Assembly: GCA_026770025.1 (NCBI GenBank)
Contig: JAMXDE010000004.1
Span: 3,025,501 to 3,089,500, forward strand
Length of the DNA: 64,000 nt
Direction: 5' to 3'
Source of the DNA: Craspedostauros australis
Taxonomy: Eukaryota > Bacillariophyta > Bacillariophyceae > Mastogloiales > Achnanthaceae
In this document: positions 8,862 through 64,000 of the stretch, piece after piece
Position numbering within the stretch: the stretch's first letter is position 1
How the letters are laid out: each line of letters opens with the position of its first letter
The notes under the pieces: model-generated
The model's database searches: none
What the model saw: the letters and a program-made list of their open reading frames with translations, nothing else
Told to the model about the DNA's origin: nothing
Position numbers and translations under genes: made by a program

Positions 8862-10097
8862 TCAAGGACAGCAAGATGTACCGAGCTCCTCATTGCACAT
8901 TCCATCCGGAATGAATTCAGCATCTGCCATGGTGAATCCATCACACGTGCACGCCTTTTCGCCAACGCAAGCTTCTGCTCCGACAACTGCGCTGACGCCC
9001 TTGCATGCGAGATCACCGATACAGGAATTGCCGGTAACTATGGAACCGATCGAGTCGCATGCTTCTGCCCCAATGCAGGAGTTTTCTCCGACAAAGACAA
9101 TTTCGCCATCTTTCGCCGGAGATGCGTTGGCGCATGCTCGCGCACCGATGCACGCGGATTCACCTGTGAAGGTGAACTTGGAATCGATGCAGCTTTGGTA
9201 TCCGAGGCACGATGCTTGTCCGATGGTGGAGAGGCTCAACGATGAGCAGGCATCCTCGCCGAAGCAGGAAGATTCGCTGACGGTGGCATTCTCCGACAAG
9301 CCCAGGCATGCACGTTTGCCATGGCATGCGAATTCAGCGACGATGACTCCGGGACCATTGAGGGATTGGCAGGATTGCTCACCGTGGCAAGAGTTGATGC
9401 TCACGAAGACATCGTTGCTTCCTGCACATGCTTGTGTGCCGAAGCAAGAGTGATTCAAGACCAAGGCTTCAGAGACCCCGGAGCAGGATTGATCGCCTGT
9501 GCAGGCATCGTTGAGGATGAAAGATCCCGTCTGCAGGTCGCTGCAGGCTCCTGTTCCCGTGCAGCTGAAGTTGCCGATGAAAGAATCGGACACGCTGAGG
9601 CAGGATTGGGTGTCGGAACAGCTGCCATTGACCACAGTCATGAACATGGATGTCATGCATGCCTGTGTGCCTTGGCAACTCTCCTCACCGACGGAGGACT
9701 GCACCATGTCTTGACAGGCTTGGACGCCGTTGCATCCAGAGCGGGCGGCGGCGCTGCCCTGCACGTTCTGGCATGCTGCAGCCCCGGTGCAGCTCAAGTC
9801 TTCGAAGCTCGCGGAGACGACATCGCTGCATGCGCCTTGTCCGCGGCAGGTGCGGTTGCCGATGGCGACCAATGTGGCATCGTCGCAGGATTGCGGGCCG
9901 ATACATGAACCGTCACCCACAAAGGCTTCGATGCGGTTGCAGCCGGCGTCAATGCAGGAGTTGGATCCGATGATCCCACGCGCATCTTTGCAAGCGCCGC
10001 CGGAAGACCCAGGCCCAGAGATGCAGGACAGTGGCCCAATGAGCGTTTGGTTGATGCCGATACAAGCGTCTGGCCCATTGCAGGATCCAGGACTCAC
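8862..10097 (-). CDS. Secreted-type protein of about 20 Cys repeats (SCxGxxAC), 5' end unresolved
   Basis: The open frame ends with TGA at 8862-8864 and stays open up to 10193 without an ATG; the boundary given is the first codon of the repeat region. The visible ~411 aa are almost wholly tandem units of about 17-23 residues with the core [S/A/T]-C-x-G-x-x-[A/S]-C, for example SCQGTQAC, SCFGTQAC, ACHGKRAC, SCIGDLAC, joined by 'xVxxxxIGxx' linkers. I count about 20 units, so about 40 regularly spaced cysteines, plus Asn glycosylation sites (NCS/NGS type). This predicts a disulfide-stapled extracellular or cell-wall solenoid. It resembles uncharacterised Cys-repeat proteins I associate with diatoms (a DUF7640-like pattern, from memory). 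A separate exon with ATG and signal peptide is expected upstream; see 10246-10317. Confidence 0.72.
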   Translation of the reverse strand: MSPGSCNGPDACIGINQTLIGPLSCISGPGSSGGACKDARGIIGSNSCIDAGCNRIEAFVGDGSCIGPQSCDDATLVAIGNRTCRGQGACSDVVSASFEDLSCTGAAACQNVQGSAAARSGCNGVQACQDMVQSSVGEESCQGTQACMTSMFMTVVNGSCSDTQSCLSVSDSFIGNFSCTGTGACSDLQTGSFILNDACTGDQSCSGVSEALVLNHSCFGTQACAGSNDVFVSINSCHGEQSCQSLNGPGVIVAEFACHGKRACLGLSENATVSESSCFGEDACSSLSLSTIGQASCLGYQSCIDSKFTFTGESACIGARACANASPAKDGEIVFVGENSCIGAEACDSIGSIVTGNSCIGDLACKGVSAVVGAEACVGEKACTCDGFTMADAEFIPDGMCNEELGTSCCP

Positions 10098-13839: not shown

Positions 13840-16800
13840 ATGGACGACACCAAAGATATGACGAACAGAGCCATCGACCTTCAAGCCCAAGCATCCCCGC
13901 AAGCAGGCTCGAAGACTGAGGCCACCAAACCCAACAACATTACCGATACCACCATGGGCAACGACCACAAGATCATCCATCAATCCATCAAGGAGAAGTC
14001 TTTCATCGATCATCTCAAGTTCATCGTCGAACTCAAGTCCGACCTCGTCTTCTCCACTTGGTACGATGAGAAGGGAAAGCCAGTCAATAACTACACCTTC
14101 CAACAGATCTGGGATGAAGCGGGACAGTGCGCCCACCTCCTTCGCAACAAGTGGGGCGTCAATAAGGGCGACCGCGTCGTTCTCTGCTACGACTTCGGAC
14201 TCCATTTCTTCGCGGTATTCTTGGGATGTCTCCGCGCAGGCGTGACTGCCGTGCTGGTCTATCCTCCGGGACCTCCGCTCGTCAAGTCACTAGCCAAGAT
14301 GAACAAGGTGGTCGAGGATTGCTCGCCAGCCCTCATTCTCACCCAGACAACCATCTCCATGTTCCGTGCTGCCGATCGAGCCAACCCAGTATCGAAGAGC
14401 CGCGCCATGTGGCCAAGCGGGGTGAAGTTTCAAGTCACCGATCGCATCATTTACCATGATGCGTTTGCCGGACACGAGAACAGTGCGAAACGACCGCGCA
14501 GGAGCTTTCTGTCCCGTGCCATCTCCAGTCGTTCGTGGGCTTCTTCGTCGACAATGACAATGAAATCCTTTGATGAACCTAACATTGAAGGCTCCGACAT
14601 TGCTTTCCTGCAGTACACATCTGGAAGCACGGGAAACCCGAAGGGTGTGATGGTCACCCACGATGCATTGAGAGCAAACGCTGAACTGTTGCACAGTGGC
14701 TGGCTGGAATGCCTTGAACATGATTTGGGTGACATGAGTAAGTTGCCCGAGCGCATCACCACATTTTCATGGTTGCCGCAGTACCACGACCTGGGCCTGA
14801 TCCAGCTGACCATCGTCCCATTGGCGGGCGCTTTCCGTACGCACATGATGTCACCGGTCTCTTTCATCCGCAATCCATTGCTTTGGATGGATCTCATCTC
14901 CAAGCACAAGTGCCATTTCACGGTCGCTCCCGACTTTGGCTACAGACTGGTTACTCGTAAGTTCAACGAGGCCAAGGCACGAGGAGGTGATCGCTCGGAT
15001 CCTATCCCCAACCTCGATCTATCCAGCATGTACTATTTCCAAAACGCTGCGGAACCCATCCGCTTGGATACGACTGAACTGTTCTCCGCAGCATTCAGCC
15101 CACACGGCTTGCGCAAGAAGTGGTTCATGACCGGATACGGTCTGGCGGAGAACGTGGTTGGCGTGAGCTATCAGCAGGGATTCCAGGTATCATCCATCCG
15201 TGAAGACGAAGATCTCCATCCATTCGTGGCCATCGCCCATCGCGACACTCTGCACCACTCCGTTGATATCGTCATCGTGCACCCAGAGACACGTGAGCCA
15301 GTGCCAGACAATTCAACGGGAGAGATGTGGATCGCAGGGCCGTCGGTGGCAGCTGGTTACTACAATCAGCCTGGCCTAACTTCGGAAACATTCCAAGCAG
15401 TGTTGTTGCAGAGCGACACAGCTGATGACACCGCAACGTCGAGCGGCAGCACAGACGGAAACACGAGCAGCAGTAACGGCAGCGACAACAGCAGCGCTCC
15501 AGCCAAAACATACCTCCGTACCGGTGACTACGGTTTCTACCAAGATGACTATCTCTACATCTGTGGACGAAAGAAGGACATCATCATCGTCAACGGCGTC
15601 AACTACTACCCACAGGACATTGAACATGCTGTCGAAGAGGCATCGCCCGCTGTCCGTCCTGGCTGCGTCGCGGCATTCTCATCAGACGAATCAGGCAACG
15701 ATGGGCGGTTGGAAATCGTGTTCGAGATTCGATCGTCTCATGCCGAGGAAGCAGCAGCGGTCTGCAACGAGATCAAGCGTGCTGTGATGGAAGGGATTGG
15801 GTTGACACCGGCAACCGTAACGGCTGTGGAAGAGCGCACCATCTCCAAGACGACTAGCGGGAAGATTCAACGAAGACGCAACCGCGAACGTCTTCATGAT
15901 GGAACGCAGAAGATGGTGCTGGACGTGATCGGAAAGTCTAATTTCTTTAGCGTACGCGATGGCGACCTGGCATCTCAATCGAAGCGTCTTTCGTTGCGGA
16001 AGTCCTGTATCCAAGACCTCGACATCAAAGATATGGACTTCAACGAGATCGTGAAGGATGTCACTGGGTCACAAGTCAAGACCGAAGACAAATGGAAAGA
16101 TGTCGGACTATCCTCCATGATGGAGCTTGAGCTTCGGCAGTCGCTCGCACGGCGATACAACACCGTCATTCCCCCCAACTGCTTCGAGATGTTTCCGTCG
16201 GTTCTTGATCTCAAGACCTACCTCGAAGCATCCATCGGGCAGCCGCTTCCGACCAACCTCCCAACGCTCAAAAGGATCCAGACAGTGCGAAACGAGAAGC
16301 CTCTGGCACAACCGACCGTCGCTTTCATCCAGGCCATCGGCGCGCTCGCCGTCCTATTCATCTTCGCGTTGCCCATCATTCCTGCATTTGAGATCGGCAG
16401 GGTGCTGGTCAACGACAACCGCACTCATGTGCTCTTCTTCATCGATTTCTCCCCGTACCTTTGGGTGTGGTACCCACTCGTCATCCCATTCTGGTCCCTC
16501 ACACTCACCATCGAGGTTGTTCTCGCAAAATGGATTGTCATCGGCAGATATCGAGAGGGACGTATCCACCAAACGAGCATCAATTTCCTTCGATGGTGGT
16601 TCGTAGATCGGCTGATGCACTTGTGGGAACTTTTCGTTGGCCGCTTCGTCTTGGGAACGCCGCTCATGACAGTATTCTGCTATCTCATGGGCGCAAACGT
16701 TCATCGATCGTCGCGTATCGACTCATGCATCCGAGAGTTTGATCTCGTGACGATGGGTGCCCATGCCAAAGTGACCCAAGCCATCCGATGCCGCATGTTC

Positions 16801-18420
16801 GGCGCTTGGGAAGACGACGTGCTGGGCCCCAGCATGAGGTTCCGCAAGATCCAAATCGGAGCCAATGCGACGGTCGACGGCACTCTGTGCCCCGGCGCGA
16901 AGGTTGGATCCTCCTGCCATGTGTGCAACCTCGCAGTGCTGGTCGAAGGTGCCCAAGCACCTCCCAACACTGTGATCAAAGGGAATCCTGGGTTTATCGA
17001 TGTCAACGTTCCTGTGACGGACCCACGGAACAATGCCGACAATCCACAGGGTGAGAACGGTGGGGTCAGGGATGCCGCAGGACCGAGCAACGACTCCCAA
17101 TGGATCACACTGGGCGCCATGAAGATTATCTGGCTGCTCATCGAGCTGTACTTTGCATTCACTTGCTTTCTGACCATCGACATTCTCGTCCGCGATGAGC
17201 TCCCAATCTGGCGATACTCCAAGTTGCAATACTGGATTGTGCTATTTGGGCTCACATCTTCTTTCCTTCTCATGTCAAGTATCCTCTTCAAATGGGTGCT
17301 CATCGGGAAGAAGCGACCCGGAAAAGCAAGCACCAGCGTCATTTCGCAGTTTGCAGACTGGGCATGTGACTTTCATTTCACGCTTGGGTGCTTCATCCTC
17401 TACGGACTGACTTTCAACTCCATCATCTGGAATCTCATCCTTATGGCTCTTGGCATGGACATTGATTTGACATCCAAGGTGTTCGCAGAGAAATTCTTCC
17501 CGTCCAAGGTGGACCTCGTCTCCGTGAGACGGTCCTTCATCTCCGTCTTCAACCCGTGCGTGAAGGATGGCAACGAGTATGCCAAGATCACCGTCGAAGA
17601 CAGCAGCATCGGCATCATGACCGTTGCCGAACCAGGTGTGGAGATCCGAAACTCGGTGGTGCCACCACAAACGCACATCACGGAGAATGTGGTGCGGTCG
17701 GAGCGTCATCCGCGCAACGTGCCTTTGTCACTTTGTGAGCATGTGCTGCTCATGGCGACGAATACGCTGCTGTACGGCATCATGCTAGTGGTGGTAGCAG
17801 GCAGCTTCATCCCAGCCTACGAACTGTGGATGAGGCTGATCAAGCCGCAGACGCCGTCCGATGCAGTTCCAGCCGTCGTGGCATGCATCATCGTTCAGTC
17901 CGCGGTGTGGACCGTGCTGCTGCGCATCCTGGAAGGCATCACGTTCCTAGGAACCGACAAGCGGACGACGCCGTGGTGCCTCGCTTTGTACATGGTGTAC
18001 CAGTCGTTCTGCTGGTCGGTTTCCATCTGGTCGTTCACCTGGGTGCTATCCGGAACGCCCATGATGAACGGCGTCCTGCGCTTTCAGGGTATCAAGGTGG
18101 AGGGACGCCTGCTCTACTTCGCCTGCCGCGCCTACGAGCCGACGCACATCACCATCGCGGATGGATGCGTCATCGACGAGTCCGTCATCTCGGGTCATCA
18201 CGATACGTTTGCGCACTTGACCTTGGTGCGGTCGTATGTGAGCGGCGTGCTGCACCAGAAATGCGGCGTGATGGGAGCGGTGAGGGAGCCCGTCCTGGAT
18301 GATGCTGCGCGGCTCATGGAGCACGGACCCCAGCATCTGTTGGTGGGCGTTGGAGATGGCATCACGGATGTTGCACCAACAGCTCAGTCGGATGAAGTGC
18401 TGCCTTCGCAGCTGGCCTGA
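13840..18420 (+). CDS. FAAL-ACP-membrane hexapeptide-repeat fusion (Pls/PosA-like terminal module)
   Basis: A single-exon 1526-aa protein. Residues ~40-690 are a fatty-acyl-AMP ligase-like adenylation domain: FLQYTSGSTGNPKGVMVTH (~255), FSWLPQYHDLGLIQ, the YPPG loop, RTGDYGFYQDDYLYICGRKKD (~560) and TTSGKIQRRR (~672). Residues ~735-795 are an acyl-carrier domain with GLSSMMELELR, the Ser (~757) being the expected phosphopantetheine site. The rest alternates membrane-helix groups (~826-900, ~1092-1150, ~1297-1400) with three left-handed beta-helix-like segments (~1000-1050, ~1247-1280, ~1407-1474). That order matches the bacterial Pls/PosA type (epsilon-poly-lysine synthetase), but with a FAAL in place of an amino-acid adenylation domain. 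Predicted role: activate a fatty acid, load it on the ACP and transfer it at a membrane; the acceptor is unknown. Bacterial ancestry is plausible but not shown. Confidence 0.85.
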   Translation: MDDTKDMTNRAIDLQAQASPQAGSKTEATKPNNITDTTMGNDHKIIHQSIKEKSFIDHLKFIVELKSDLVFSTWYDEKGKPVNNYTFQQIWDEAGQCAHLLRNKWGVNKGDRVVLCYDFGLHFFAVFLGCLRAGVTAVLVYPPGPPLVKSLAKMNKVVEDCSPALILTQTTISMFRAADRANPVSKSRAMWPSGVKFQVTDRIIYHDAFAGHENSAKRPRRSFLSRAISSRSWASSSTMTMKSFDEPNIEGSDIAFLQYTSGSTGNPKGVMVTHDALRANAELLHSGWLECLEHDLGDMSKLPERITTFSWLPQYHDLGLIQLTIVPLAGAFRTHMMSPVSFIRNPLLWMDLISKHKCHFTVAPDFGYRLVTRKFNEAKARGGDRSDPIPNLDLSSMYYFQNAAEPIRLDTTELFSAAFSPHGLRKKWFMTGYGLAENVVGVSYQQGFQVSSIREDEDLHPFVAIAHRDTLHHSVDIVIVHPETREPVPDNSTGEMWIAGPSVAAGYYNQPGLTSETFQAVLLQSDTADDTATSSGSTDGNTSSSNGSDNSSAPAKTYLRTGDYGFYQDDYLYICGRKKDIIIVNGVNYYPQDIEHAVEEASPAVRPGCVAAFSSDESGNDGRLEIVFEIRSSHAEEAAAVCNEIKRAVMEGIGLTPATVTAVEERTISKTTSGKIQRRRNRERLHDGTQKMVLDVIGKSNFFSVRDGDLASQSKRLSLRKSCIQDLDIKDMDFNEIVKDVTGSQVKTEDKWKDVGLSSMMELELRQSLARRYNTVIPPNCFEMFPSVLDLKTYLEASIGQPLPTNLPTLKRIQTVRNEKPLAQPTVAFIQAIGALAVLFIFALPIIPAFEIGRVLVNDNRTHVLFFIDFSPYLWVWYPLVIPFWSLTLTIEVVLAKWIVIGRYREGRIHQTSINFLRWWFVDRLMHLWELFVGRFVLGTPLMTVFCYLMGANVHRSSRIDSCIREFDLVTMGAHAKVTQAIRCRMFGAWEDDVLGPSMRFRKIQIGANATVDGTLCPGAKVGSSCHVCNLAVLVEGAQAPPNTVIKGNPGFIDVNVPVTDPRNNADNPQGENGGVRDAAGPSNDSQWITLGAMKIIWLLIELYFAFTCFLTIDILVRDELPIWRYSKLQYWIVLFGLTSSFLLMSSILFKWVLIGKKRPGKASTSVISQFADWACDFHFTLGCFILYGLTFNSIIWNLILMALGMDIDLTSKVFAEKFFPSKVDLVSVRRSFISVFNPCVKDGNEYAKITVEDSSIGIMTVAEPGVEIRNSVVPPQTHITENVVRSERHPRNVPLSLCEHVLLMATNTLLYGIMLVVVAGSFIPAYELWMRLIKPQTPSDAVPAVVACIIVQSAVWTVLLRILEGITFLGTDKRTTPWCLALYMVYQSFCWSVSIWSFTWVLSGTPMMNGVLRFQGIKVEGRLLYFACRAYEPTHITIADGCVIDESVISGHHDTFAHLTLVRSYVSGVLHQKCGVMGAVREPVLDDAARLMEHGPQHLLVGVGDGITDVAPTAQSDEVLPSQLA

Positions 18421-43279: not shown

Positions 43280-46200
43280 CTACGCGCTGAATTGTTGCTG
43301 CTGCTGCTGTTCCAACATATCCAAGGTCCGCAGCTGGCGCTTGGCGGCGTCAATGTGCATCTGCCGTTCCTCCGCCAGCGCGGCAGCGTGCTGCTGCTGT
43401 TCCAAACGCAGCAACATCGATTGCCCGCCGGGATTGCGGCACTCCCAACCCGGGTTGGCCGCGCGGAAGTTCAGCAGCGACTTCTCCATCTTGCCGTGCC
43501 GGGCCTTCGGCGTTCCGCTTGGAGGTGCGAGGTTGCGGTTCGTCCACGAGGATCTGTGGTTGGGCTCGTTCAGGATGGTGTCGCCCAGGGTGGACTTCTC
43601 CAGGTCGGTCGGTTTCGATCGGGTGGCATTGCGTCGTGCGTTCCCTTTCTGCGGGGTGGCGCGGTCGCACATGGTGCAGCCGTCCCACGCTTCGTCGCCG
43701 TATAGGTTGAAGTCGAACGTGGAGTATCCGCAGACGTCACCTGCTCCTGGGCCACGCAGCCGGTGCCGGGTGGACTGGCAAAAGTTGCAAATCTTATCCG
43801 CGGCCGGCGCCCACTTGCAGATCAGGATGTAGGGAGCAAGGACGACGCTGGCGAGTTCGTAGAGCAGGAGCTTCACCTTGGAATCCATCAGCTTGGACAG
43901 CGCGCCGTGGACGGAGGATTCCCAGCCCCTGTTCTTCCAGATGTCGGGGTAAAAGTGCGTGTGCTCGGCCACGCCCAGCAGGGCTGTGTCCATGTCCTTG
44001 TACAGGTTGTGCGACACCATCCGTGGCTTGTTGGTTGGGGACAGCGACTTGCCCACGGAGTACACGATGCCTGCGATACCGGCGTACCACACCAAATTCC
44101 TCCCGCCGTACTGGACATGCAGGAGCAAGGCATCGTTCATGGCGGCCAGGATGAGGAGGACGCCACCGGTGGCACCGCCAACGAACACCAGAAGATGACC
44201 AAGCGCCAGAAGCACCTCGCTGGAGCCGAACAGGCCAAAGTACTCGTCCGCGGCCTTGTAGCTGGGCTCCATCCTGGCATCGAAGACGTGCGGTAGCTCG
44301 TTGAACTCGCGGAACGTCCACTTGGCCGCCCTGGACCAGTCCTTTCCACCGAAGTAAGTGTTGCTGCGTTGGAATTCATACACATTCTGCAACGCGAAAT
44401 GCATGATCTGAAACACAAGAACGAAGGGCATGAAGATGATGTGCAGATACCCCACGAGGCGGAACCGCTGCTCCAACGCAACTGGATCCTGTACGAAGGC
44501 TGGGCGCACTTGGTACTTGTGGTTGAACATGAAGTTGGTGATGCAGAAATGCAGCGACCATTCCAGCGTGGCACCAAAGTACATGCGTCCGCCGACTGTG
44601 CAATCCAACAAGCGGTCGCCCTGATTCCACAAGGCCACCAAGAAGTTGTCCTTCCTCATGATGCGCTGCGCTACTTCCAAGATGCTCAGGCCTGACGTGG
44701 ATTGCGAGACCTGCTGCAGCTGTTCTCCTGCCTCCACCTGCATCTGCGTTGGTATCTGCGTTGGCAAGTGAGGAGACGAGCTGCGGGCTGTACTATCCTG
44801 CTTCTGCTCGTGTGCATCTAGTACGGATGTGGCCATCGCAGACGGTGGCGAAGTTTGGCCATTGTCGCCAGCAGTGTTTCCAAGTTCATCGCTCGGAGAC
44901 TGTCGTTGTTCTGGTGTCATCGGAAGTGTCGCATGGTTACCCTGCATCACGGAGACGGTCGATCTAATATTGAGCTGCTCGTTGCTGGAGTTGCTGTCGG
45001 TGCTGCATTCGGTGCCGAAACTGTTGCCTGGACTCTGGGATGCGCTTGGACTGGAAGTGCCTGTCGTTTGGCCCATGTGTGATTGTGCAGTACCGTGAAC
45101 GGGGTTTGAGGACTGATGTTGCGGGTGCTGTGAGGCACGCTGGGGAGTTCTTTCAAATCTGGCCGGCTTTGTGAGGGATGAGGATGGTGATTGCGACAGA
45201 GAAGAAGCGTTGCTGCTGGCGTTGCTGCCACCATTGCCATTGCCGTAGTTGATCATGAAGCGGAATGTTCCAGCCTCTTGGACGTGGACAAGCTGCTTGA
45301 CAATGTCCTCCCAGGCGATGGAGCCACCGAGCAGCTTCCTTGATGCGAAACCCAGCTTATCCTCCAGCACGTTCTTTGCCATGATCGCGTGCTGAACCTG
45401 CTGCCAAAACTGCCATGCGGTGAAGATCGTGTATGTACCAAAGACAACGATGTAGGTCGGGATGACGAAGTTCTTCCACACCTTGTACATGAAGGAATGT
45501 GTCGCAGTAGATGTCGCTGTGTCCGATGAAGACCACACGAGGTAGTCCTGCACATGTGCGTGACACGTTTCCTCATCCTGACACTGCCACACCTGTTGCC
45601 AATCAACATGCCCCAACAAGACGGCGGAAAGACCCAAAGTGATGCACATTGTGATGATCTCCACCATGCCCTTGCACAGGATCGGAACCAGGCCGCGGTT
45701 GTAGTAGTAGGTGTACAAGTGCGAGAGGAAGAGATCCACATTGGGCACCGCGCCCCATCCGTCGTGCTGGGCCCGATTGGGGAACGATGCAACTTTGAGG
45801 AAGACCGATTTTGCAATCGACTGCACACCGTAAATTGATTCGAAACCTTCCGAGTTCCCTTGTTGACCGTGGGGTCTTCCATTCTCTTGTCGTTTCTGTT
45901 GCTGGTATTGCGCATGGTGTGAGTTCTGCGAATGCTGGGGGAACTGTGGATGATGTGAATGATGGGGGCTTGCTGTCGTGCTTTGAAGCAGCGTGGCATC
46001 CAAAGGGATGGAACCATGACTCGTTCCCAAGTTGACATCATTCTCATCCATGACTGGCAGGGGAGCATATCGCTGGACCTTGCCCCCGTTGTTGTTGGTG
46101 GCGGTGTTGAAGTAACTGCGGGCGCCGTTTCGACTGTGGGTGTAGGTACTACTCGTAGCATGCCCTTGACCAGAAGTGTGCGCATGAGCCTGATTGTATC

Positions 46201-46660
46201 CATACCCATGTGGCACTGCGACCTGTTGCTGCTGCTGTGGCTGTTGCTGTCCGCGCTCAATGTCCTGAGCACCATCGGGAGACCACATGGGCGGTTGATA
46301 GATCGCAGGTCGGTTTGCATCATTGAGATGCTGCCGAAGCAGCGCGGCATTCTGGTAGGTTTGGTCGGCTGCGTGCTGCAAGGAGGTGCCCACCATGCTA
46401 CCTAAGACAACCAGCGGATTGGATCGCGATTCGAATGCCTGCGGCTGTGAAAACCTGGATTGGTGCTGCCGAACTTCCATCGCTTCATGGTCATCAAGCT
46501 GGTCCCAGATTTCGTTGCCATCGCTCCCCCTTGCGTCGTTGTTTGCCGGGGCCACGTTCTGGTAAGTATGCAGAGGAAGCTGGGGCATGTGCGAGTTGGA
46601 GCTGGGAGCAGTTTGGGACGTTGGAAGCAACGGGTCCTCGTCGGGAGACGTGAGATTCAT
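43280..46660 (-). CDS. ATG9: Autophagy-related protein 9 (ATG9)
   Basis: ATG9 is the multispanning lipid scramblase of autophagosome-seeding vesicles. Single exon, 1126 aa. Residues 1-285 are a Gln/His/Asn-rich disordered head. The conserved core begins near 285 and runs to ~985: NVDLFLSHLYTYYYNRGLVP, membrane helices (GMVEIITMCITLGLSAVLLG; IPTYIVVFGTYTIFTAWQFW), RIMRKDNFLVALWNQGDRLL, and the ATG9-typical 'LVGYLHIIFMPFVLVFQ', 'EFNELPHVFDARM', 'KYFGLF/SEVLLALGHLLVFVGG' and 'KPRMVSHNLYKDMD' blocks. A Ser/Asn/Gln-rich insertion of ~180 residues (~473-655) interrupts the core after the first helices. A ~140-residue tail ends in Gln repeats. Start ATG and stop TAG are both clear. Confidence 0.93.
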   Translation of the reverse strand: MNLTSPDEDPLLPTSQTAPSSNSHMPQLPLHTYQNVAPANNDARGSDGNEIWDQLDDHEAMEVRQHQSRFSQPQAFESRSNPLVVLGSMVGTSLQHAADQTYQNAALLRQHLNDANRPAIYQPPMWSPDGAQDIERGQQQPQQQQQVAVPHGYGYNQAHAHTSGQGHATSSTYTHSRNGARSYFNTATNNNGGKVQRYAPLPVMDENDVNLGTSHGSIPLDATLLQSTTASPHHSHHPQFPQHSQNSHHAQYQQQKRQENGRPHGQQGNSEGFESIYGVQSIAKSVFLKVASFPNRAQHDGWGAVPNVDLFLSHLYTYYYNRGLVPILCKGMVEIITMCITLGLSAVLLGHVDWQQVWQCQDEETCHAHVQDYLVWSSSDTATSTATHSFMYKVWKNFVIPTYIVVFGTYTIFTAWQFWQQVQHAIMAKNVLEDKLGFASRKLLGGSIAWEDIVKQLVHVQEAGTFRFMINYGNGNGGSNASSNASSLSQSPSSSLTKPARFERTPQRASQHPQHQSSNPVHGTAQSHMGQTTGTSSPSASQSPGNSFGTECSTDSNSSNEQLNIRSTVSVMQGNHATLPMTPEQRQSPSDELGNTAGDNGQTSPPSAMATSVLDAHEQKQDSTARSSSPHLPTQIPTQMQVEAGEQLQQVSQSTSGLSILEVAQRIMRKDNFLVALWNQGDRLLDCTVGGRMYFGATLEWSLHFCITNFMFNHKYQVRPAFVQDPVALEQRFRLVGYLHIIFMPFVLVFQIMHFALQNVYEFQRSNTYFGGKDWSRAAKWTFREFNELPHVFDARMEPSYKAADEYFGLFGSSEVLLALGHLLVFVGGATGGVLLILAAMNDALLLHVQYGGRNLVWYAGIAGIVYSVGKSLSPTNKPRMVSHNLYKDMDTALLGVAEHTHFYPDIWKNRGWESSVHGALSKLMDSKVKLLLYELASVVLAPYILICKWAPAADKICNFCQSTRHRLRGPGAGDVCGYSTFDFNLYGDEAWDGCTMCDRATPQKGNARRNATRSKPTDLEKSTLGDTILNEPNHRSSWTNRNLAPPSGTPKARHGKMEKSLLNFRAANPGWECRNPGGQSMLLRLEQQQHAAALAEERQMHIDAAKRQLRTLDMLEQQQQQQFSA

Positions 46661-53982: not shown

Positions 53983-56742
53983 ATGGCCTCTCGCAGCGCG
54001 ATCTCCAAGGTAAGAGAAGGAGCGAAGGCAGCAAGGTTTTGATGCGGCCGTTCACCTTCATGTGAGCGTGGAAATGGAGCAGCTGTCGATTGATCGCCTG
54101 CTTTGGCTTGCGGTAGTGTTGGATTCGGATTCGGTGATCTGGGTGGTTTGGTTACGTGGTTGGATGCAATGCAATGCAGCCCAGAGCGGCGCAGGAACGC
54201 ATGAATCACGCGAGATGATCATTCATCAGCGAGCCAGGGACATGATCAGACCATGGAGGCGGTGGCAAGTGGTGGATCTCAGGAGGTCAACAGTCACAAC
54301 CAACCAACCGACCAATGCACAGCCAAAAAGCACACGAGGAACGCTTTCTGGGTCGGGATGATGGTCATATGTTCAATTCATGGTTACAAGCCATCTGCTA
54401 GCCTCCATCCATCAGAGCAGTGCTGTGCCATCACATGCGATGTCGATGGAACCGATGGCAGATAACAAAGCATGAGGATTTCCGAGACTAAATGCTCCGC
54501 CAAGCTGCCATCAAGTTGGAGATAGGCGAGGCGACAGCACAAAAGCTCGCACATAACGAAGTCCACAGTGATTGATGGACATGTCTTCCAAAACGCCAAT
54601 GGTCGTTGGTGGATTCTTCCCTTGAGCAGAAGTGGGGTGGCCTCTCCATCTGCCTCTGCGGACAAAGAGGAGGGTTGAGTTGGATCACACGCATCAGACT
54701 ACGAGTATGCCATGCTAAATTGTGCCACCTGGCGCAACCTGCAACTGTGTGGACACATAGATGGCAATACGTACCTTCTCAGTTGTCCACGATGCTGAAC
54801 CAAGCAACCATACCCTGGACAAGGCCTTGGCAGCCAGAGGCCAATGCCTATGATGTAGATCAACAACAAGCTTCCATTTGGTCTGATCAAACTGCAAAGA
54901 TCCAATCCACTCCCACCCTCGCCACCACATCTTCAGCTGAATCGAATCCAAATCTACAGGCGGATAAACCGCCTGCCCAGACTCTACCTGTTGGAAACGG
55001 ATGAAACAGCCCTGCCGCAGAGTCAAACGTCAAGCGTCGATCGCAAAATGTTAAGTGTTCAAGACCTGTCACATCTCACCCTCTGCAATCTCAATCTCAA
55101 CTTTCGCACGCATACACAAACAATGCCAACAGTTCTTGGCACACTCTGCCAAGAGTCAGCCAAGCCGTGCACTTTCGGCTGTCGCCGCCACCACTTCGGA
55201 GGCCTTCCCAGACTACGTCCTCCGTGCACCAACCACGGACGTCACAACCCTCGGCAATGGCCTGCGCGTCGGAAGTGAGACCGTCGCCGGGGCCGAGACC
55301 GCCACCATCGGCGTCTGGATCTCCGCTGGATCCCGTTACGAGAGCGCCGCCAACAACGGAACCTCCCACTTCCTGGAGCACATGGCCTTCAAGGGAACCT
55401 CCAAGCGCACCCAGCAGCAGCTCGAGCTTGAGATCGAGAACATGGGTGGCCACTTGAACGCCTACACATCCCGCGAGCAGACCGCCTACTTCGCCAAGGT
55501 CTTCAAGCAGGACGTCGGAAAGGCCGTCGAGATCATCTCCGACATCCTCCTCAACTCCACCCTCGACGAGCAAGCCATTGAGCGTGAGCGCGATGTCATC
55601 CTGCGAGAAATGTCCGAGGTCAACAAGAATCAGGAGGAGCTCGTGCTCGATCACCTCCACAGCACCGCCTTCCAGGGAACCTCCCTCGGACGCACCATCC
55701 TGGGTTCGGAGGAGAACATCCTCAGTCTCAGCCGCGATGACCTCGTCAACTACGTCAACACGCAGTACACCGCTCCACGAATGGTCGTCGCTGGAGCCGG
55801 AGCCGTCAACCACGAGGAGCTCTGCACCTTGGCCGATCAGCACTTCGGTGGCCTCCCATCCGCCCCCAAGGACGGCGTTGAAGTCGCCATGGAGCCAGCC
55901 GTCTTCACCGGAGGTGACTACCGGTAAGTGCACGCTCACACATGTTCTTGGTTTGCAATTGCGCAGCAACAGGAATCCTTGACGCATCAACCCCACCACC
56001 CGCTCACTCAAGCATCGCTTCGCCTCTTCCGCTTCTCAATCCCTGTTTGGTCTCCCTCTCGTCCGTTCTATCTGCTCACTCTCACCGCACATCCTCCGCT
56101 CGTCATCTTCGTCTTCAAAACTCCAGCGTGAAGTTCAACTCTGACGACACCGCCCACATGGCAGTTGCCTTCCCAACCGCTTCCTGGACGTCTGAATTCG
56201 CCTTCCCGCTCATGCTCATGCAGAACATCTTGGGATCTTACGACCGCGCCCACGGATTGGGCAAGAACCACGCCTCGCAGCTCTGCCAGGACATCGCTGA
56301 GAACGAGCTCGCCCTCTCCGTCAACACATTCAACACCTGCTACAAGGACACCGGTCTCTTCGGAGTCTACGCCGTCACCCCGGACAACAAGGTCGATGAC
56401 ACCATGTGGTACGTCATGAACAACCTCGTCCGCATGGTCCACGAGGTCTCCGATGCCGAGGTCGACCGCGCCAAGGTCAGCCTCAAGGCCACCATGCTCA
56501 TGAGCCTTGACGGAAACAACAACGTCGCCGAGGACATCGGCCGATCGCTCCTCAACTACGGACGCCGCATGACACCAGCCGAGATCTTCTCCCGCATCGA
56601 CGCGGTCAGCACCGCCGACGTCCGTGCAACGGCATCCAAATTCTTCAACGACCAGGACCTCGCCATCGCTGCCGTGGGAGGAATCCACGAGCTGCCAGAC
56701 TACACCTGGTTCCGCCGCCACACACACTGGCTGCGATACTAA
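53983..56742 (+). CDS. PMPCB: Mitochondrial processing peptidase beta subunit (M16 metalloprotease), three exons
   Basis: Cleaves presequences from imported mitochondrial proteins. My model is exon 1 at 53983-54009 (MASRSAISK, donor GTAAGA), exon 2 at 55133-55923 (after GCCAACAG, opening FLAHSAKSQ; donor GTAAGT) and exon 3 at 56127-56742 (after ACTCCAG), introns 1123 and 203 nt, 477 aa. The joined N-terminus [21 protein letters not shown] is itself a mitochondrial presequence. The zinc-binding site is [11 protein letters not shown], with the distal Glu in the [15 protein letters not shown] segment about 75 residues on. The second half carries the inactive M16 C-domain ([20 protein letters not shown] ... 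[20 protein letters not shown]). The intact HxxEH site argues for the catalytic beta subunit rather than alpha or a complex III core protein. Exon 2/3 phase (CG|C) is consistent. Confidence 0.95.
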
Positions 56743-57387: not shown

Positions 57388-60300
57388 CTACATCCAAAGT
57401 CCCTCCTCGATCTCCTTCTCCACCAGAGCCTGAAGCTTCTCCATTGGCTTGTCGGCCAACGTTTTCCTCACCTCAGCGACGATTTGCCTTCCCAGCTTCT
57501 TGGGCAGGTTCTTGGACAGACTCCTGGGCAGGCTCCTTGTGATTTTCTTCATGAAGCTCTGTCGGCCGTTTTTAAGGGCCTGGAAGTTAACCACGTGTTG
57601 TGGCTGTGGCTGCAGCTCGCGATCGACAGCGGTTGCATCTGGTTCCTCCTCCTTCTCTTCCTCTGCCTGGTTATCTTCGTCGGCAGAGCCTTCGACAGCC
57701 TTGGGCACAGCATCTGCGTCTGACTTCTCCTCGTCGTCTTGGACAAGGCTAATCTTCTCCAATCCAGGGCCTTGCGACGAAGCAATCGGGTTGTCGGCTC
57801 CATCATCCTGAACTGGCGACGCCTTGTCGGCAATTTCGTGCACGGCGATGGCTGGTTCGCTTGGGGCCACACGAGTACACCCCTGCGCCTCCGTGGCGAC
57901 CGACATCTTCTTCACCATATTCCTGCGCCGTGCGGACGCCGCCATTCGCTGACGGAGTGCGACCTGTCTGGCCACGGCTGGATCATACGCCGCCATTCCA
58001 TCAGAGGGCGCCAACACGACTTCGTCGGTCTTGAATGAGCCGAGGAAACCGGCACCGAAACCGCCGAAGTAGATTGCGGATGCGGCTGCGAGGATGATCA
58101 TCGCGAGCGCGATGAACGTGTTTCTCTGCTTCCTGAGGCTCGTTGCGTTGCCTTCCATCGCACCAAGCTCTCGCGAGACCGTTGCGTGCGATTCCTTTGA
58201 CGTCATCAACTCCTCTTCCTTCTTCTCGACTGACGCCACCAGCTCTTCCTTCATGGTGGAAACATTGCCAATGACATCCTTGACTTCCTTCTTCAGCAAG
58301 TCCACCTCAATCTGCAGCATCTGCTTTTCGGATGCCATTTCTGTCTTCACGCCAAGCGCTTCGGCAAGAGTTTGGGGCTTGCCATCGGCGGTCTTGGGTC
58401 TGGCGTAGATGATGGGCATGTCGGACTCGTCGCTGTATGACGAGGAATCGCTCTCGCTCCTGCCTTCGTCGTCCTCGCCGCTCGTATCACTGACAGCATC
58501 GTCGGCGATGCTTCCAATACCACCTCGGGCCTTGATATTGGCGTCTTCAATCACACTGGAACTGAGATCTGCTGCGTCTGAAGCATCCCTTGTTGGATCT
58601 GGCAGGCCGAGAGCCCGGGCCAGAGTGTGGCCACCTAGGTTGCTGCCTGCAGCTTCTGGATGCTTCTTCTGTGCAGCAACACTTGAAAGGACGACTTCAG
58701 CCAAAGACTTCGGCTCTGGGCGCGGTTCGGTGGCTTCCGCCGGTGCCGCAGTGTCGTCTTCGGGTGGACTCAGAAGCTCTGCTGCCAGCAAAGCAACAGG
58801 GTCCTCGGCGTTCCCGTTGTCGTGCACATCAGTAGAGTCATGAATCTCGGACGGCTCCCGTCGGATCGCTGGGATCCTGAGCTTCTTCTTCGTGAAGACA
58901 GGCGAACTGAATCTTCTCGTGACGGCCCCAGGAGGATCAACCGTCGAAGCCGCGACGGCATCTTCGATTGTGGCACTATCTGAAACGATACCATCGCTTG
59001 GTTTGGATGCCACGTCTTCGGGATCTCGGACTGCGCCAATGCCAGTGCTATCATCCTTGTCAGTAGCGTTGACGTTGGCGTCGGTCGTAGCGTCGGCTAT
59101 ATCAGTGACATCAGGAGCATCCTCTTCCTGGTCAGAAGCGTCGTTGATACCTTCATAACCACTGTCGGTGCTATCATCACTGTCGCTTTCGCTATCGCTG
59201 TCACTCTCGCTATCTTCATCACTCTCCACAACAAGCTGCTCGAGTGGCAGGCCAAGAGCCTCCGCAAGCGTCTTCGTCTGACTGTTGGCTGGCGCGCTGA
59301 CTGGTGATTGTGCAGTCGAAGCCGTGTTGGAGGCCAGTCTGTCCACGACTGCGCTTGAAAGAGATCTTGAAGTAGTCGCAGTAGCATTGGCCTTCTCTGT
59401 CTTCTTCACTGTGCCGACATCACCTTGATCGATGGGCAAGCCGAGCGCCTCCGCCAGGCTCTTCGTTCTTGGTGTGGCCTGTGCCATGCTATCGTGTGCA
59501 CCGCCCTTGCCTCTAGCCAGTCTCTCGACCACGGCCGTCGAAAGTGATTTAGTTGCAGGCGCTGGCATTGCAGGTGCTGTCACACGAACATCTGTTTGTG
59601 CCACGACGAGTGGATTTACCAAGGGCAACCCCAGCGCTTCCGCCAAGGTCTTTGTTTGGCTCGCAGCAGCCGTGGCTGGAGGTAATATTGATGTTGATGT
59701 TGGAGTTTCGGCCAGCCTTTGCACAACAGCATTCGACAGTGACTTCGCTGCACTTGGCTTCTCTGTCTTGCCACTTGCAGTTGTGCCATCTGGTTTCTCC
59801 AGTGGCAAGCCGAGAGCCTCTGCCAGTGTCCTTGTCTGAGTGGATGTCTTTCTGGGACTCAGTTGCCCATCAGCCAACCGCCGCATGACGACGTTGGACA
59901 ACGATGCTGGACCAGCCGTGTCATGGCTTGTAGGTTTCGCAACTGGCATAGACCTTTCACGTCCATCGTTCGCGGCGACAAAAGGCTTCTCGAGTGGCAA
60001 CCCGAGTGCTTCGGCCAACGTCAGCGTCTTGTTGGAGGGCAGTCCTGAGGTTGCAGCAGTTGTAGCTGCCGGTGTGCCGTCTGCCAATCTTTGTGCAACG
60101 GCACTCGACAACGATCTGGAGTTGCCGTCCATGGGTGCGGTTGTCTTCGGGGGAGGACCGGTCTTTTCGAGGGGCAAACCCAGAGCCTCGGCAAGTGTCC
60201 TGGTTTGTGGAGTGGCTCTGCCTGCACTCTCCCCTTCGGCCAGTTTCTGCACCACCGCATTCGACAACGATTTCGAAGACGATGGGGCCAGATTGACTTG

Positions 60301-63300
60301 GTCTTTTTCGCTCCCATGGACCGCAGGCGAACTTGCCATCGGCAGTCCAAGCGCTTCGGCCAACGTCCGTGGTTGGTTAGTTGGTGCCGCCGCCGCTGCG
60401 CCGCCCGCCAGTCTCTGCACAACCGCAGTTGACAATGACTTGGGACTCATCTGCCCCTTGCGAGTGATACTGCGAGGAGGGGTTGCTCTGGTTGCAGCCG
60501 CAGTTGCAGCAGCAACACCGCTTGGTTTCTCGAGTGGCATGCCGAGAGCCTCCGCAAGGGTCCTTGTCTGCGGTGCGGCCTGAATGCTGCGCCCCTGCCC
60601 GCTAGCCATGTTGTCGATCACGATAGCCGAAAGCGGCATGGATGTTGGAGTGTTGGCTGTGCGTTGTGCGGGCATCGTGGTTGGTCCACTACCACTGCCG
60701 ACACTGCTGACTTGTGGCTTTTCTAGCGGCAAACCCAGCGCTTCAGCCAAGGTCAATGTCTTGCCCGCTGGTGCCGCTGGGGTTGCAGCGGTGCCGTTGG
60801 CGAGCCTCTGTGTGACAGCATTTGACAGTGACTTGTCGGGTTTGGGTGCGGGCATAACTTCGCGGTCTTGATCTTGGACTGGCCTTTCGAGGGGTAATCC
60901 AAGAGCTTCGGCCAGTGTTAGCGTCTTGGTGGGCGTTGCGTTTCGTTCGCCTGAATTTGATGGCATGGTGGCCGCCGATACGGTGGGTGTGCGACTGTTG
61001 AGTCTTTTCACGACGGCATCTGACAATGACTTGGGGTTGGTTGTTGCCATTTGTTTCGTTGTGTTTTGCTCGAGAGCATCTGGGTTTTCAAGTGGCAGTC
61101 CAAGAGCCTCGGCCAGTGTTCTCGTCTTGGGCACAGACAGCGCAGTCTGATCGCCTTCCGCTGTGGACATTCGTTGCACAACAGCTGTGGAAAGTGATTT
61201 GGGCCTTCCAGCTGGTGCTGCCATTGTTGCGCTTGCTGGTGCTGCTTCGCTGCCGGCATTGGTGCTGCGCACTTCAGGTTTCTCGAGCGGCAGCCCAAGG
61301 GCTTCCGCTAAAGTCTTGGTTGTCTGCCCACCGGTTGCAGCCGTGGCGGCCACCTTCATGCCGCCGCCATCACTTGTGACAAGATTCTGGACGACGGCAT
61401 TCGAGAGAGATCTAGAGGCGGATCCGCCTTGGCTTGCAGGAGCCTCTGGTGCGTCGTCTGCCTTTTCCAGCGGCAATCCAAGAGCTTCCGCAAGCGTCTT
61501 CGTTTGTGCCGCCGCTCGTGGAATTTCGTTGCGTCCATGGGACAATCGCTGGACTACGGTTGTGGATAGGGATCTCGCTGATTCGGCAGGAGTCGCGGTT
61601 TGGTTGGGCACATCTCTGCTTGCAGTAGCAGGCTCCTGGACTGTCAGACCAAGTGCTTCGGCCAGCGTTTGGGTCTGAGCGGTCGTCTTGGGTGCAGGTG
61701 ACGCGGACATCGCTGCTGGGTTTGTGAGCCGCTGGACGACAGCGTTTGACAGTGACTTCGAGCTGGGCTCAACCTGCTGTTCGCTCTTTTCAGCGACAAT
61801 AGGAGGCTCTTCAAGGGACATTCCAAGCGCTTCTGCCAGTGTCTTGGTTTGTGGCTGCGCTCTTGTAGCGTTGCTTTGCCCCGCGGCGAGACGCTGCACC
61901 ACGACATTGGACAGCGATTTCGCTCCGACCGATGGCTTTGTCGAACTAGCCGTTTTCGTGGGCATTGCCGGGGTTGTTGGCGTATCATTGTTATCGCCCG
62001 CCGTCGGTTTCTCGAGTGGCAATCCAAGTGCCTCTGCCAGAGTTCTCGTCTGGACAGGCGGAGCGGAAGACGCAGCGAATTGGGCATCGCTTGTCGCCAG
62101 TTTCGTGAAAACTGCGCCGCCAAGCGATTTCCCTGGAACGCTGCTGCTGCTGCTGTCCTTCCCTCTGGGTTTCTGCTGCGGCACCGGCGCCCCACGTGAT
62201 CGCTCAAGTGCTGGCAAGTAAACATCGCCGCGGAATTGAGTTGCGGAGGGTGATGTAGGGTGGTGCATTGCGTCGACCATGACGGGAGCGACGACAACTC
62301 CATTGGCTGGGCGAACGAGATCTCTCGCGACGGGGCTGCTGGGAGACGAAGCAGCACTGCCTCCGGCGCCAGACCTTCCCTTCAAACGCGCCGCGATACT
62401 CTTCCTCCGTTCTCCTTCGCGACGAAGGTTGGATTCCATGTTGCGCAGGATATCGGACGTGTGGGATTCCATGGGAACTGGTTTGACGTTGGATTGCATG
62501 CGAGTGTTCAGAGTCTCGCGGTCTTCTAACAGACCCTGCTTCAATTTCTTGACATCCTCGTACTCCTTCTGAAGGAGTTCACGAGATTGCTGAAGTTCGG
62601 AGCAGACGTTCTCCAGCTTGGCTTCGGTCTGGATCCATTTTTCCGAAATGGCCTTCTTGACGCGTTGTTCTGAGTCAATGTCCGATTCCAACCTCTTGAT
62701 CTTGCTGGACTTCTCTGAGATCTGGTGCTCGAACGTCGCCAGCTGTTGGTGCAACGACGTCAGCCTGTCAGAGTAGTTCTTGGAATTGGCGAAGAGTTGT
62801 TCCTCCAGTGTTTGGCTGTATTTGTTCACGCCAGCTGTCTTGGCCTCCGACTCCATCAAGGCAGTCTTCAGCGTCTGTTCCGACTCTCGCATCGCAGCAA
62901 CATCCTCTGCGTTGTCTTCGTCGGACTTGGTCGACACCGTCTCGAGAGTCTTGATGCGGTTTTCAAGCACGTTGATTTCCTTCCTCACGCCGCTCATGTC
63001 GAGCTTCGTTTGCGATATCTCGCTGATGAGATCGGTCATCTCGCTGCGCACTTCGGCGACGTGCTCGTAGAAGCTGTCCATGACAGAAACCTTGCTCTCC
63101 GTCTCATTCGTCAGGTAGGAACCGACGGTTCTTGTTGGCGACCCGCCCGTGCCTGAAGGTGAGCCGTCTTGAGCCCTTGTGACCACGGACAGCTCGGGTG
63201 GAAGAGTTCCGTCTCGTGTGGTGGCAGTTGCGCTTGATGAAAAGGTTCCATTCCTGTCCACGGTGGCCATTGGGTTTTGACCCGCAAGCTTGTCGTCATC

Positions 63301-64000
63301 ATGGGTGGGCTCCTTGAGATCTCGCGTTGATTGCTTAGACGAGCCTCCGGCTTGCTGGCTCGAGGGTTGTTGCTTTGCTCTCGCTGGCTTGGGGCTTGAT
63401 CCGGATTTTCCCGATGCGAAGAAAGATGCGGGAACACCCAAAGCCTGCGCAAGATAATCGATGTCCAAATCTGCTGGGTCTTGCGCTGCCGGCACACCCC
63501 GGTTTGTGGTCTGTGCCGACTCTTTTCCACGCGGTTGTGCCCTGCGCTGCTCTTCGGGCGGCGCCTGCTGCTGCTGATGTTGCTTTCGCTGGCTAAGTTC
63601 GGGAGTCTTCGGTGACGAAGCGTCTCGTTTGGGAGCTGACGATGATGAGGAGGATGGTGCAGTGGGACTCGATCGGCGATTGCCAGCCCGGTCGTGGCTG
63701 GAGCCTGCGTCCATGTCGACACGTTCCCTACCAACCGGGGCCCCGAGCGCAGACACCAATGAGCCAAGCTTGGCGGTGGACGAGGATTTTCGCATGCCTG
63801 GTGGTGCCCCACCAGACGATGGCTGCGCAGCTGATGTGACACGCATCTTCATGACATCGCCGAGAGGGAGCATGCACTCCAGAAGGCTCTGGTCTTCCAT
63901 CTTCTCCTCTTGTTCGCTTTCACTTTCGTTGCTATCGAATCCATCGGGACCAGCGGGTTCTTGACGGACGGCTGGAGCGGTGGATGATGGATCCACTTTC
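57388..64000 (-). CDS. Giant tandem-motif membrane protein (about 18 x TLAEALGLPLEKP), 5' end outside window
   Basis: The minus-strand frame is open to the right edge, and its first Met-like codon at 63996 is GTG, so the start is off-window; at least 2203 aa are visible. Layout, numbering from 63996: acidic, disordered head; a coiled coil (~299-500, e.g. EVRSEMTDLISEISQTKLDM); a repeat region (~619-1589) of about 16 units; an acidic run (SDEDSESDSDSESDSDDS); two divergent outlying units (HTLARALGLP, QTLAEALGVK); a second coiled coil (~1880-1945); one membrane helix (~1962-1982, TFIALAMIILAAASAIYFGG); a basic juxtamembrane patch (RQRMAASARRRNMVKK); and a basic amphipathic C-terminus. Each unit pairs an S-L-S-x-A-V-V-x-R-L helix with T-L-A-E-A-L-G-L-P-L-E-K-P. 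No enzyme motif is seen and I recognise no family. It looks like a membrane-tethered multivalent scaffold; its partner and organelle are unknown. Confidence 0.8.
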   Translation of the reverse strand, partial: KVDPSSTAPAVRQEPAGPDGFDSNESESEQEEKMEDQSLLECMLPLGDVMKMRVTSAAQPSSGGAPPGMRKSSSTAKLGSLVSALGAPVGRERVDMDAGSSHDRAGNRRSSPTAPSSSSSSAPKRDASSPKTPELSQRKQHQQQQAPPEEQRRAQPRGKESAQTTNRGVPAAQDPADLDIDYLAQALGVPASFFASGKSGSSPKPARAKQQPSSQQAGGSSKQSTRDLKEPTHDDDKLAGQNPMATVDRNGTFSSSATATTRDGTLPPELSVVTRAQDGSPSGTGGSPTRTVGSYLTNETESKVSVMDSFYEHVAEVRSEMTDLISEISQTKLDMSGVRKEINVLENRIKTLETVSTKSDEDNAEDVAAMRESEQTLKTALMESEAKTAGVNKYSQTLEEQLFANSKNYSDRLTSLHQQLATFEHQISEKSSKIKRLESDIDSEQRVKKAISEKWIQTEAKLENVCSELQQSRELLQKEYEDVKKLKQGLLEDRETLNTRMQSNVKPVPMESHTSDILRNMESNLRREGERRKSIAARLKGRSGAGGSAASSPSSPVARDLVRPANGVVVAPVMVDAMHHPTSPSATQFRGDVYLPALERSRGAPVPQQKPRGKDSSSSSVPGKSLGGAVFTKLATSDAQFAASSAPPVQTRTLAEALGLPLEKPTAGDNNDTPTTPAMPTKTASSTKPSVGAKSLSNVVVQRLAAGQSNATRAQPQTKTLAEALGMSLEEPPIVAEKSEQQVEPSSKSLSNAVVQRLTNPAAMSASPAPKTTAQTQTLAEALGLTVQEPATASRDVPNQTATPAESARSLSTTVVQRLSHGRNEIPRAAAQTKTLAEALGLPLEKADDAPEAPASQGGSASRSLSNAVVQNLVTSDGGGMKVAATAATGGQTTKTLAEALGLPLEKPEVRSTNAGSEAAPASATMAAPAGRPKSLSTAVVQRMSTAEGDQTALSVPKTRTLAEALGLPLENPDALEQNTTKQMATTNPKSLSDAVVKRLNSRTPTVSAATMPSNSGERNATPTKTLTLAEALGLPLERPVQDQDREVMPAPKPDKSLSNAVTQRLANGTAATPAAPAGKTLTLAEALGLPLEKPQVSSVGSGSGPTTMPAQRTANTPTSMPLSAIVIDNMASGQGRSIQAAPQTRTLAEALGMPLEKPSGVAAATAAATRATPPRSITRKGQMSPKSLSTAVVQRLAGGAAAAAPTNQPRTLAEALGLPMASSPAVHGSEKDQVNLAPSSSKSLSNAVVQKLAEGESAGRATPQTRTLAEALGLPLEKTGPPPKTTAPMDGNSRSLSSAVAQRLADGTPAATTAATSGLPSNKTLTLAEALGLPLEKPFVAANDGRERSMPVAKPTSHDTAGPASLSNVVMRRLADGQLSPRKTSTQTRTLAEALGLPLEKPDGTTASGKTEKPSAAKSLSNAVVQRLAETPTSTSILPPATAAASQTKTLAEALGLPLVNPLVVAQTDVRVTAPAMPAPATKSLSTAVVERLARGKGGAHDSMAQATPRTKSLAEALGLPIDQGDVGTVKKTEKANATATTSRSLSSAVVDRLASNTASTAQSPVSAPANSQTKTLAEALGLPLEQLVVESDEDSESDSDSESDSDDSTDSGYEGINDASDQEEDAPDVTDIADATTDANVNATDKDDSTGIGAVRDPEDVASKPSDGIVSDSATIEDAVAASTVDPPGAVTRRFSSPVFTKKKLRIPAIRREPSEIHDSTDVHDNGNAEDPVALLAAELLSPPEDDTAAPAEATEPRPEPKSLAEVVLSSVAAQKKHPEAAGSNLGGHTLARALGLPDPTRDASDAADLSSSVIEDANIKARGGIGSIADDAVSDTSGEDDEGRSESDSSSYSDESDMPIIYARPKTADGKPQTLAEALGVKTEMASEKQMLQIEVDLLKKEVKDVIGNVSTMKEELVASVEKKEEELMTSKESHATVSRELGAMEGNATSLRKQRNTFIALAMIILAAASAIYFGGFGAGFLGSFKTDEVVLAPSDGMAAYDPAVARQVALRQRMAASARRRNMVKKMSVATEAQGCTRVAPSEPAIAVHEIADKASPVQDDGADNPIASSQGPGLEKISLVQDDEEKSDADAVPKAVEGSADEDNQAEEEKEEEPDATAVDRELQPQPQHVVNFQALKNGRQSFMKKITRSLPRSLSKNLPKKLGRQIVAEVRKTLADKPMEKLQALVEKEIEEGLWM
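59230..62140 (-). repeat. Coding tandem repeat array (paired short helices)
   Basis: About 16 units of roughly 45-70 codons within the giant gene at 57388-64000. The two core motifs are tightly conserved while the linkers vary in length and sequence (Ala/Thr/Pro-rich). Because codons also vary between units, the array does not look like very recent duplication. Confidence 0.85.

Follow-up and report, generated by a model that had tools for sequence, protein, structure and literature searches.

The diatom Craspedostauros australis encodes a giant protein, read from a single unbroken frame of 3754 codons (hereafter the first giant), in which two short, alternating motifs are repeated dozens of times ahead of one predicted membrane helix. 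One of the two motifs is held by selection and recurs in a second giant encoded elsewhere in the genome. We propose that the first giant is a cytosol-facing, membrane-anchored, multivalent scaffold that shares a sticker, and through it a binding partner, with the soluble second giant; we give this reading about an even chance of being correct. Below, the window is the whole stretch of 64,000 nucleotides that was analyzed, and the genome assembly from which it came was 74.8 Mb in 90 contigs.

The first giant and its alternating motifs

The first-giant frame was on the minus strand, ended in a stop at window position 57388, and ran off the right edge of the window, with its start ATG in the flanking sequence (Table 1). 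From stop to stop, the frame was 3778 codons. The original prediction had described a giant repeat protein of at least 2203 codons from the window alone. The protein was real and larger; pattern searches of its full length found 36 copies of motif A ([ST]LA[EA]ALG) and 27 copies of motif B (KSLxxxVVxRLA), the latter count being 25 with a narrower pattern and 27 with one that caught two more. In shuffled sequence, the motif A pattern occurred 0.14 times on average, and a loose motif B pattern occurred 5 times on average and 12 times at most. Specifically, the window part, for which about 18 motif copies had been predicted, contained 18 LAEALG-type copies (full-protein residues 2205 to 3429) plus two divergent ones (residues 1632 and 1734). 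With up to four mismatches allowed, the window part had 15 matches to TLAEALGLPLEKP, compared to 0 in each of 200 composition shuffles, and 14 matches to SLSNAVVQRLA, compared to a shuffle maximum of 1.

Other genes were also seen in the window. The neighboring gene (55055-56742, plus strand) resembled, by eye, a mitochondrial processing peptidase subunit with an intron, and the frame at 43280-46660 (minus strand) resembled, likewise by eye, the autophagy membrane protein ATG9. An adenylation domain appeared, by eye, to be fused with carrier-like, membrane, and hexapeptide-like parts at 13840-18420 (plus strand). Cys-rich repeats of the GxxSC type, presumably of a sort that occurs in diatoms, were located at 8862-10097 (minus strand).

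Table 1. Features of the first giant and its gene (window coordinates unless a contig or flank is named)
Feature	Position	Strand	Remarks
3' part of giant gene (2203 of 3754 codons)	57388..63999	-	gene begins beyond window at contig C2:3094152 (L002:8153)
Divergent motif A, SLVSALGAPVG	63724..63762	-	P0001 has same motif at 1258
Divergent motif A, YLAQALGVPASFF, one of three such in first giant	63418..63456	-	pattern search
Conserved coiled-coil-like region, single copy in genome	62395..63117	-	64% identity to P0001; coiled coil judged by eye
Main array, 16 motif A alternating with 15 motif B	59230..62043	-	mean A-to-A period 61.6 residues
Last B-like motif (KSLAEVVLSSVA) and final two A motifs	58330..58710	-	motif search
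Second long helix, probable coiled coil, ahead of membrane helix	58156..58359	-	one predicted helix
Single transmembrane helix	58066..58119	-	hydropathy peak and predicted helix
C-terminal tail of 225 residues, probably luminal	57391..58065	-	basic helix, acidic stretch, terminal helices, end GLWM (model of low confidence)
Recent internal duplication	L002 (upstream flank, inside giant gene) 3688-4511 and 4990-5810		95% identity

In the main array, motif B was located 25 to 38 residues before motif A (15 B-A pairs), which fell within the 20 to 40 residues that had been predicted. The seven-residue cores of the 16 main-array A motifs (15 TLAEALG and 1 SLAEALG) were encoded by 16 distinct DNA sequences, and their mean pairwise pS and pN were 0.77 and 0.023, respectively. 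Because the A cores were nearly saturated at synonymous sites and almost unchanged in amino acids, they are old copies under purifying selection, not fresh duplicates. For motif B, the pN of 0.32 was an overestimate, with one B copy out of register in the alignment; the folded alignment of units included one unit that was without its first residues. These values bear on the idea that the repeats are functionless duplications that drift within a spacer. As that idea would have it, a recent internal duplication did add A/B units upstream of the window; its two copies, about 824 bases long and 95% identical, are separated by about 480 bases. The idea is contradicted by the pN and pS of the A cores and by a layout that is kept in a second organism, and we assigned it hardly any probability.

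The second organism was represented by P0001, a JGI metagenome protein of 2959 residues and the sole homologue that we found (E = 1.3e-203). It was the one match among the top 7977 candidates scored, in a database whose eukaryote coverage is uncertain, and again the one match among 1247 candidates in a second search. P0001 contained 26 A and 18 B motifs, which alternated, and its parts were in the same order as those of the first giant. From the N-terminus onward, it comprised an acidic region, one B motif, several A motifs in a run, a first A/B array, the coiled-coil-like region, another A/B array, one final A, a match to the second helix, the membrane helix, and a tail. The predicted unit layout was thus conserved in a relative. 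In the first giant, the order of A and B motifs changed 53 times, compared to a mean of 31 and a maximum of 46 in 20,000 shuffles; in P0001 it changed 33 times, compared to a shuffle mean of 21 and a maximum of 33.

Over aligned residues, the identity between the first giant and P0001 was 77% for motif A and 54% for motif B, both of which are upper estimates because the repeats may align out of register, and 32% for the linkers. It was 65% for the coiled-coil-like parts and 37% for the membrane helix and tail, and about 30% of the A, B, and linker residues had no counterpart in the alignment. Both within the gene and between the two proteins, then, the cores were kept while the linkers drifted, as the original prediction had stated.

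That no described family carries these motifs had also been predicted, and our searches agreed. A Pfam scan of the window part, which excludes the first 1551 residues, reported six families at E values up to 1 and none at the cut-off, and a PDB search yielded no chain match (best E = 0.13). YycC, DUF1664, GGDEF_2, E3_binding, Ub-Mut7C, and FapA were rejected as candidates; these matches were below the cut-offs and located in the repeats or the coiled coil. No relative was found in a scan of viral contigs, a weak test in that two of its six short patterns were low-complexity. Text searches of the literature, in which sequence letters rarely appear in the main text, found nothing for TLAEALG and no relevant paper for LAEALGL, LFDALG, or AEALGLP, only one on Vipp1. 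The short motifs TQT (dynein light chain), NPF, and SxIP were rare, with 0 to 2 occurrences each per protein.

A second giant with motif A

A degenerate-DNA search of the genome for LAEALG produced 38 matches, of which 19 were in the first giant, 14 were clustered at C33:168163-172541, and 5 were elsewhere; the reversed control produced 1. Around one of the stray matches (C6:1891867), no frame bearing the motif stayed open for more than 60 codons, and the other four coded for Cys or Arg where S/T was expected. The cluster belonged to the second giant, one frame of 5049 codons (contig C33:165378-180524, minus strand) that comprises 4964 codons from its first ATG (about 4964 residues). The second giant contained 44 A-type motifs (18 TLAEALG-type and 26 TLFDAL-type) spaced 27 to 57 residues apart, mostly about 40, and nine SLVEAAKRAK units 80 residues apart. 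Seventeen of the 18 genome-wide matches to a TLFDALG pattern were in this protein (control, 2), and the single stray, at C8:2111478, likewise had no motif-bearing frame longer than 60 codons around it.

Two further patterns pointed back to the first giant. SLAAALGM had 11 of its 14 genome-wide matches there, with three strays and a control of 0. The exact motif B pattern had seven matches there, five stray matches, and no second cluster (reversed control, 19), and motif B would have a counterpart in the second giant only if TLFDAL counts as one. In unmasked BLAST comparisons, the second giant matched the first giant (E = 8e-4) and P0001 (E = 3.6e-9), and with the motifs masked it matched neither at 1e-3. 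Hence, the two giants appeared to have no detectable similarity outside the motifs. The same motif A in two otherwise dissimilar giants is what a shared partner predicts, and the two probably share one. By hydropathy, no membrane helix was found in the second giant (highest value, 1.08). Two Pfam scans reported two and zero families, none at the cut-off. A homologue search found none among 2607 candidates (again with uncertain eukaryote coverage), so the sharing of the sticker was observed in a single genome.

In the regular part of the second-giant array, TLFDAL and TLAEALG types strictly alternated, as complementary stickers would. This brings in the main rival to a shared partner, namely, that A binds B (or TLFDAL in the second giant) both within and between chains, to form a membrane gel or brush that needs no separate partner. 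The alternation in both giants fits such self-association as well; A/B alternation is far above chance in both homologues, and N-terminal variants of B, KSLFDGML among them, look like TLFDAL. The structural model of the repeat unit, for which 15 units served as the alignment, pointed the other way. Of moderate confidence, it placed a helix at B (unit residues 7 to 16) and a short helix of four residues at A (unit residues 31 to 34; mean pLDDT, 68), and the two helices were separate, with no confident packing (pTM, 0.27). The failure of exact motif B to form a second cluster in the genome also argues against self-association, which we regard as possible and probably not the answer.

The second giant also contained two copies of a domain of about 120 residues for which we know no name. 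The domain matched 11 places on C55 (10 in a 2866-codon frame and 1 in a 3026-codon frame), one frame on C21, and one on C8. The C8 frame encodes a myosin heavy chain (Myosin_head, E = 3e-158) that carries two copies of the domain in an N-terminal extension, which the second-giant domain matched with a BLAST E value of 2.8e-21. A profile of five copies found nothing better than E = 0.19 in the PDB and only weak, single-member matches in Pfam (best E = 0.006). The connection between the second giant and the myosin is this common domain, and a link to actomyosin may perhaps follow the same route.

Several details of the domain-bearing loci were noted. The myosin frame occupied about 1808500-1816700 of C8 (minus strand), with IQ-like repeats and a coiled coil, judged by eye, after the domain copies. 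On C55, eleven domain matches stood in a row (161000-165000, with matches to 170821), and the three copies that were examined were near-identical units between acidic linkers. The C21 match (277534-278130) was in a 1196-codon frame and had an E value of 1.2e-12.

Predicted topology and cellular location

One membrane helix near the C-terminus had been predicted, and hydropathy placed it at residue 3512 of the first giant, where the structural model also predicted a helix. Neither homologue had another 19-residue hydropathy peak above 1.5, and the value at the helix reached 2.1 in the first giant. A targeting signal had been expected in the upstream sequence. When the N-terminus was read from the flank, 19-residue hydropathy revealed no N-terminal hydrophobic stretch in the first giant or in P0001 (highest values, -0.16 and 0.04, respectively; an unseen upstream exon is possible). 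Because there is one membrane helix and no N-terminal hydrophobic stretch, the repeats are most likely cytosolic and the tail of 225 to 275 residues luminal in both homologues. The charges flanking the helix in the first giant (+3/-1 before and +1/-2 after) showed a weak bias that agreed with this topology, and those in P0001 (+3/-2 before and +2/-1 after) showed no bias. Judging from composition, the linkers are probably disordered.

The tails comprised 225 residues in the first giant and 275 in P0001, and both ended in GLWM. KASH/LINC proteins have a short luminal tail with a PPPX-type ending after a C-terminal membrane helix, and the length and ending of the two tails led us to reject that identity. 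The C-terminal model of the first giant had a pLDDT of 53 and contained helices only. No paralogue was found in the genome for the tail at E up to 0.01 or for the conserved coiled-coil-like region at E up to 0.001. The two coiled coils of the original prediction stood in a weaker form: the first was judged by eye, in a stretch 64% identical to P0001 (window-part residues 290 to 540), and the second was one long predicted helix (block pLDDT of 83 to 90 at fragment residues 11 to 50, lower on either side).

Several golgins are built in this way, with a long cytosolic part and a coiled coil followed by a membrane helix near the C-terminus. The first giant might thus be a tether of the golgin or TANGO1 kind, with repeats that catch vesicle coats or small GTPases at a secretory organelle. 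Golgins localize to the Golgi and are coiled coil along most of their length; in the first giant, coiled-coil-like stretches appeared, by eye, to make up a small part of the 3754 residues. TANGO1 has repeated coat-binding motifs, and the first giant is like these proteins in its predicted large cytosolic part, coiled coil, and membrane anchor. However, no Pfam family above the cut-off, PDB match, or other sequence relation was found, and the composition of the first giant was mostly low-complexity. Dozens of A/B motifs and 225 residues past the membrane helix also set it apart, and we consider a tether of this kind quite unlikely.

The original prediction had tentatively drawn a parallel with pyrenoid linkers. 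The organism has a plastid, and its Rubisco is of form ID: contig C90 (133 kb) carried plastid genes, including a form ID rbcL, whose five best PDB matches we take to be diatom Rubiscos. One of these five, 5MZ2, is described as a diatom Rubisco in PMC10288592. The same paper describes PYCO1 and its KWSP and GTGYNP stickers, in which Trp and Tyr are critical, and the first giant resembles PYCO1 in that both are low-complexity repeat proteins of red-lineage algae, each with a pair of recurring sticker types (PMC10288592). In contrast to PYCO1, the first giant carries a membrane helix, its 3754 residues include 3 Trp, and both PYCO1 motifs are absent; KWSP(R/Q) and GTGYNP occurred 0 times in the first giant, the second giant, and P0001. 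Nuclear-encoded proteins of such complex plastids bear N-terminal bipartite targeting peptides, according to PMC4329603, and N-terminal hydropathy of the first giant and P0001 gave no sign of a signal peptide plus transit peptide of the ASAFAP type.

In the Chlamydomonas pyrenoid, EPYC1 and the membrane proteins RBMP1/2 carry a common Rubisco-binding motif (PMC10473226). The likeness to the two giants is one short helical sticker in both a soluble multivalent linker and membrane-bound proteins (PMC10473226). The motif itself differs, EPYC1 has five copies compared to 36 in the first giant and 44 in the second (PMC10473226), and the giants show A/B alternation and no visible plastid targeting; Rubisco binding would follow only by analogy. 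An EPYC1-, RBMP1-, or PYCO1-type linker or tether that gathers Rubisco would fit the 61.6-residue period, the helical stickers, the form ID Rubisco, and a sticker common to a membrane-bound and a soluble protein. The N-termini of both homologues, the absence of the PYCO1 motifs, and the domain that the second giant has in common with a myosin argue against this, and we think it very unlikely. Thus, the multivalent, low-complexity, membrane-tethered protein with a motif under selection that had been predicted was found, and a pyrenoid location was not supported.

A proposed two-part scaffold

We place the system in the cytosol because no N-terminal signal was seen, the PYCO1 motifs are absent, and the soluble giant has a domain in common with a myosin. 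In the proposed scaffold, the roughly 3500 N-terminal residues of the first giant would be mostly low-complexity linker bearing the 36 A and 27 B stickers, each of which may be a short helix. Under the rules of helix capping, motif A can be read as a self-contained mini-helix, with T/S as the N-cap, E/D three residues on (a capping box), a hydrophobic face (L..AL), and then Gly and a hydrophobic residue as a Schellman-type end. The A and B stickers would bind one globular partner many times over, and we infer that this partner is identical for every unit. The second giant, through its A sticker, would bind this partner as well, and partner molecules would then cross-link the membrane brush to a soluble network. 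Through the domain that the second giant has in common with a myosin, the network may tie a membrane or organelle to actin motors. The most extended form of the proposal is a lineage-specific two-part sticker system in which a common partner, a cytosolic condensate on an organelle surface, and actomyosin coupling via the soluble giant are combined; taken as a whole, we regard it as unlikely.

To our knowledge, few multivalent sticker scaffolds that organize organelles have been described. If the proposal is true, the logic of the Chlamydomonas pyrenoid, a linker and a tether with one motif, would have evolved independently in another compartment. With two otherwise dissimilar giants that carry one conserved sticker, the partner can now be looked for.
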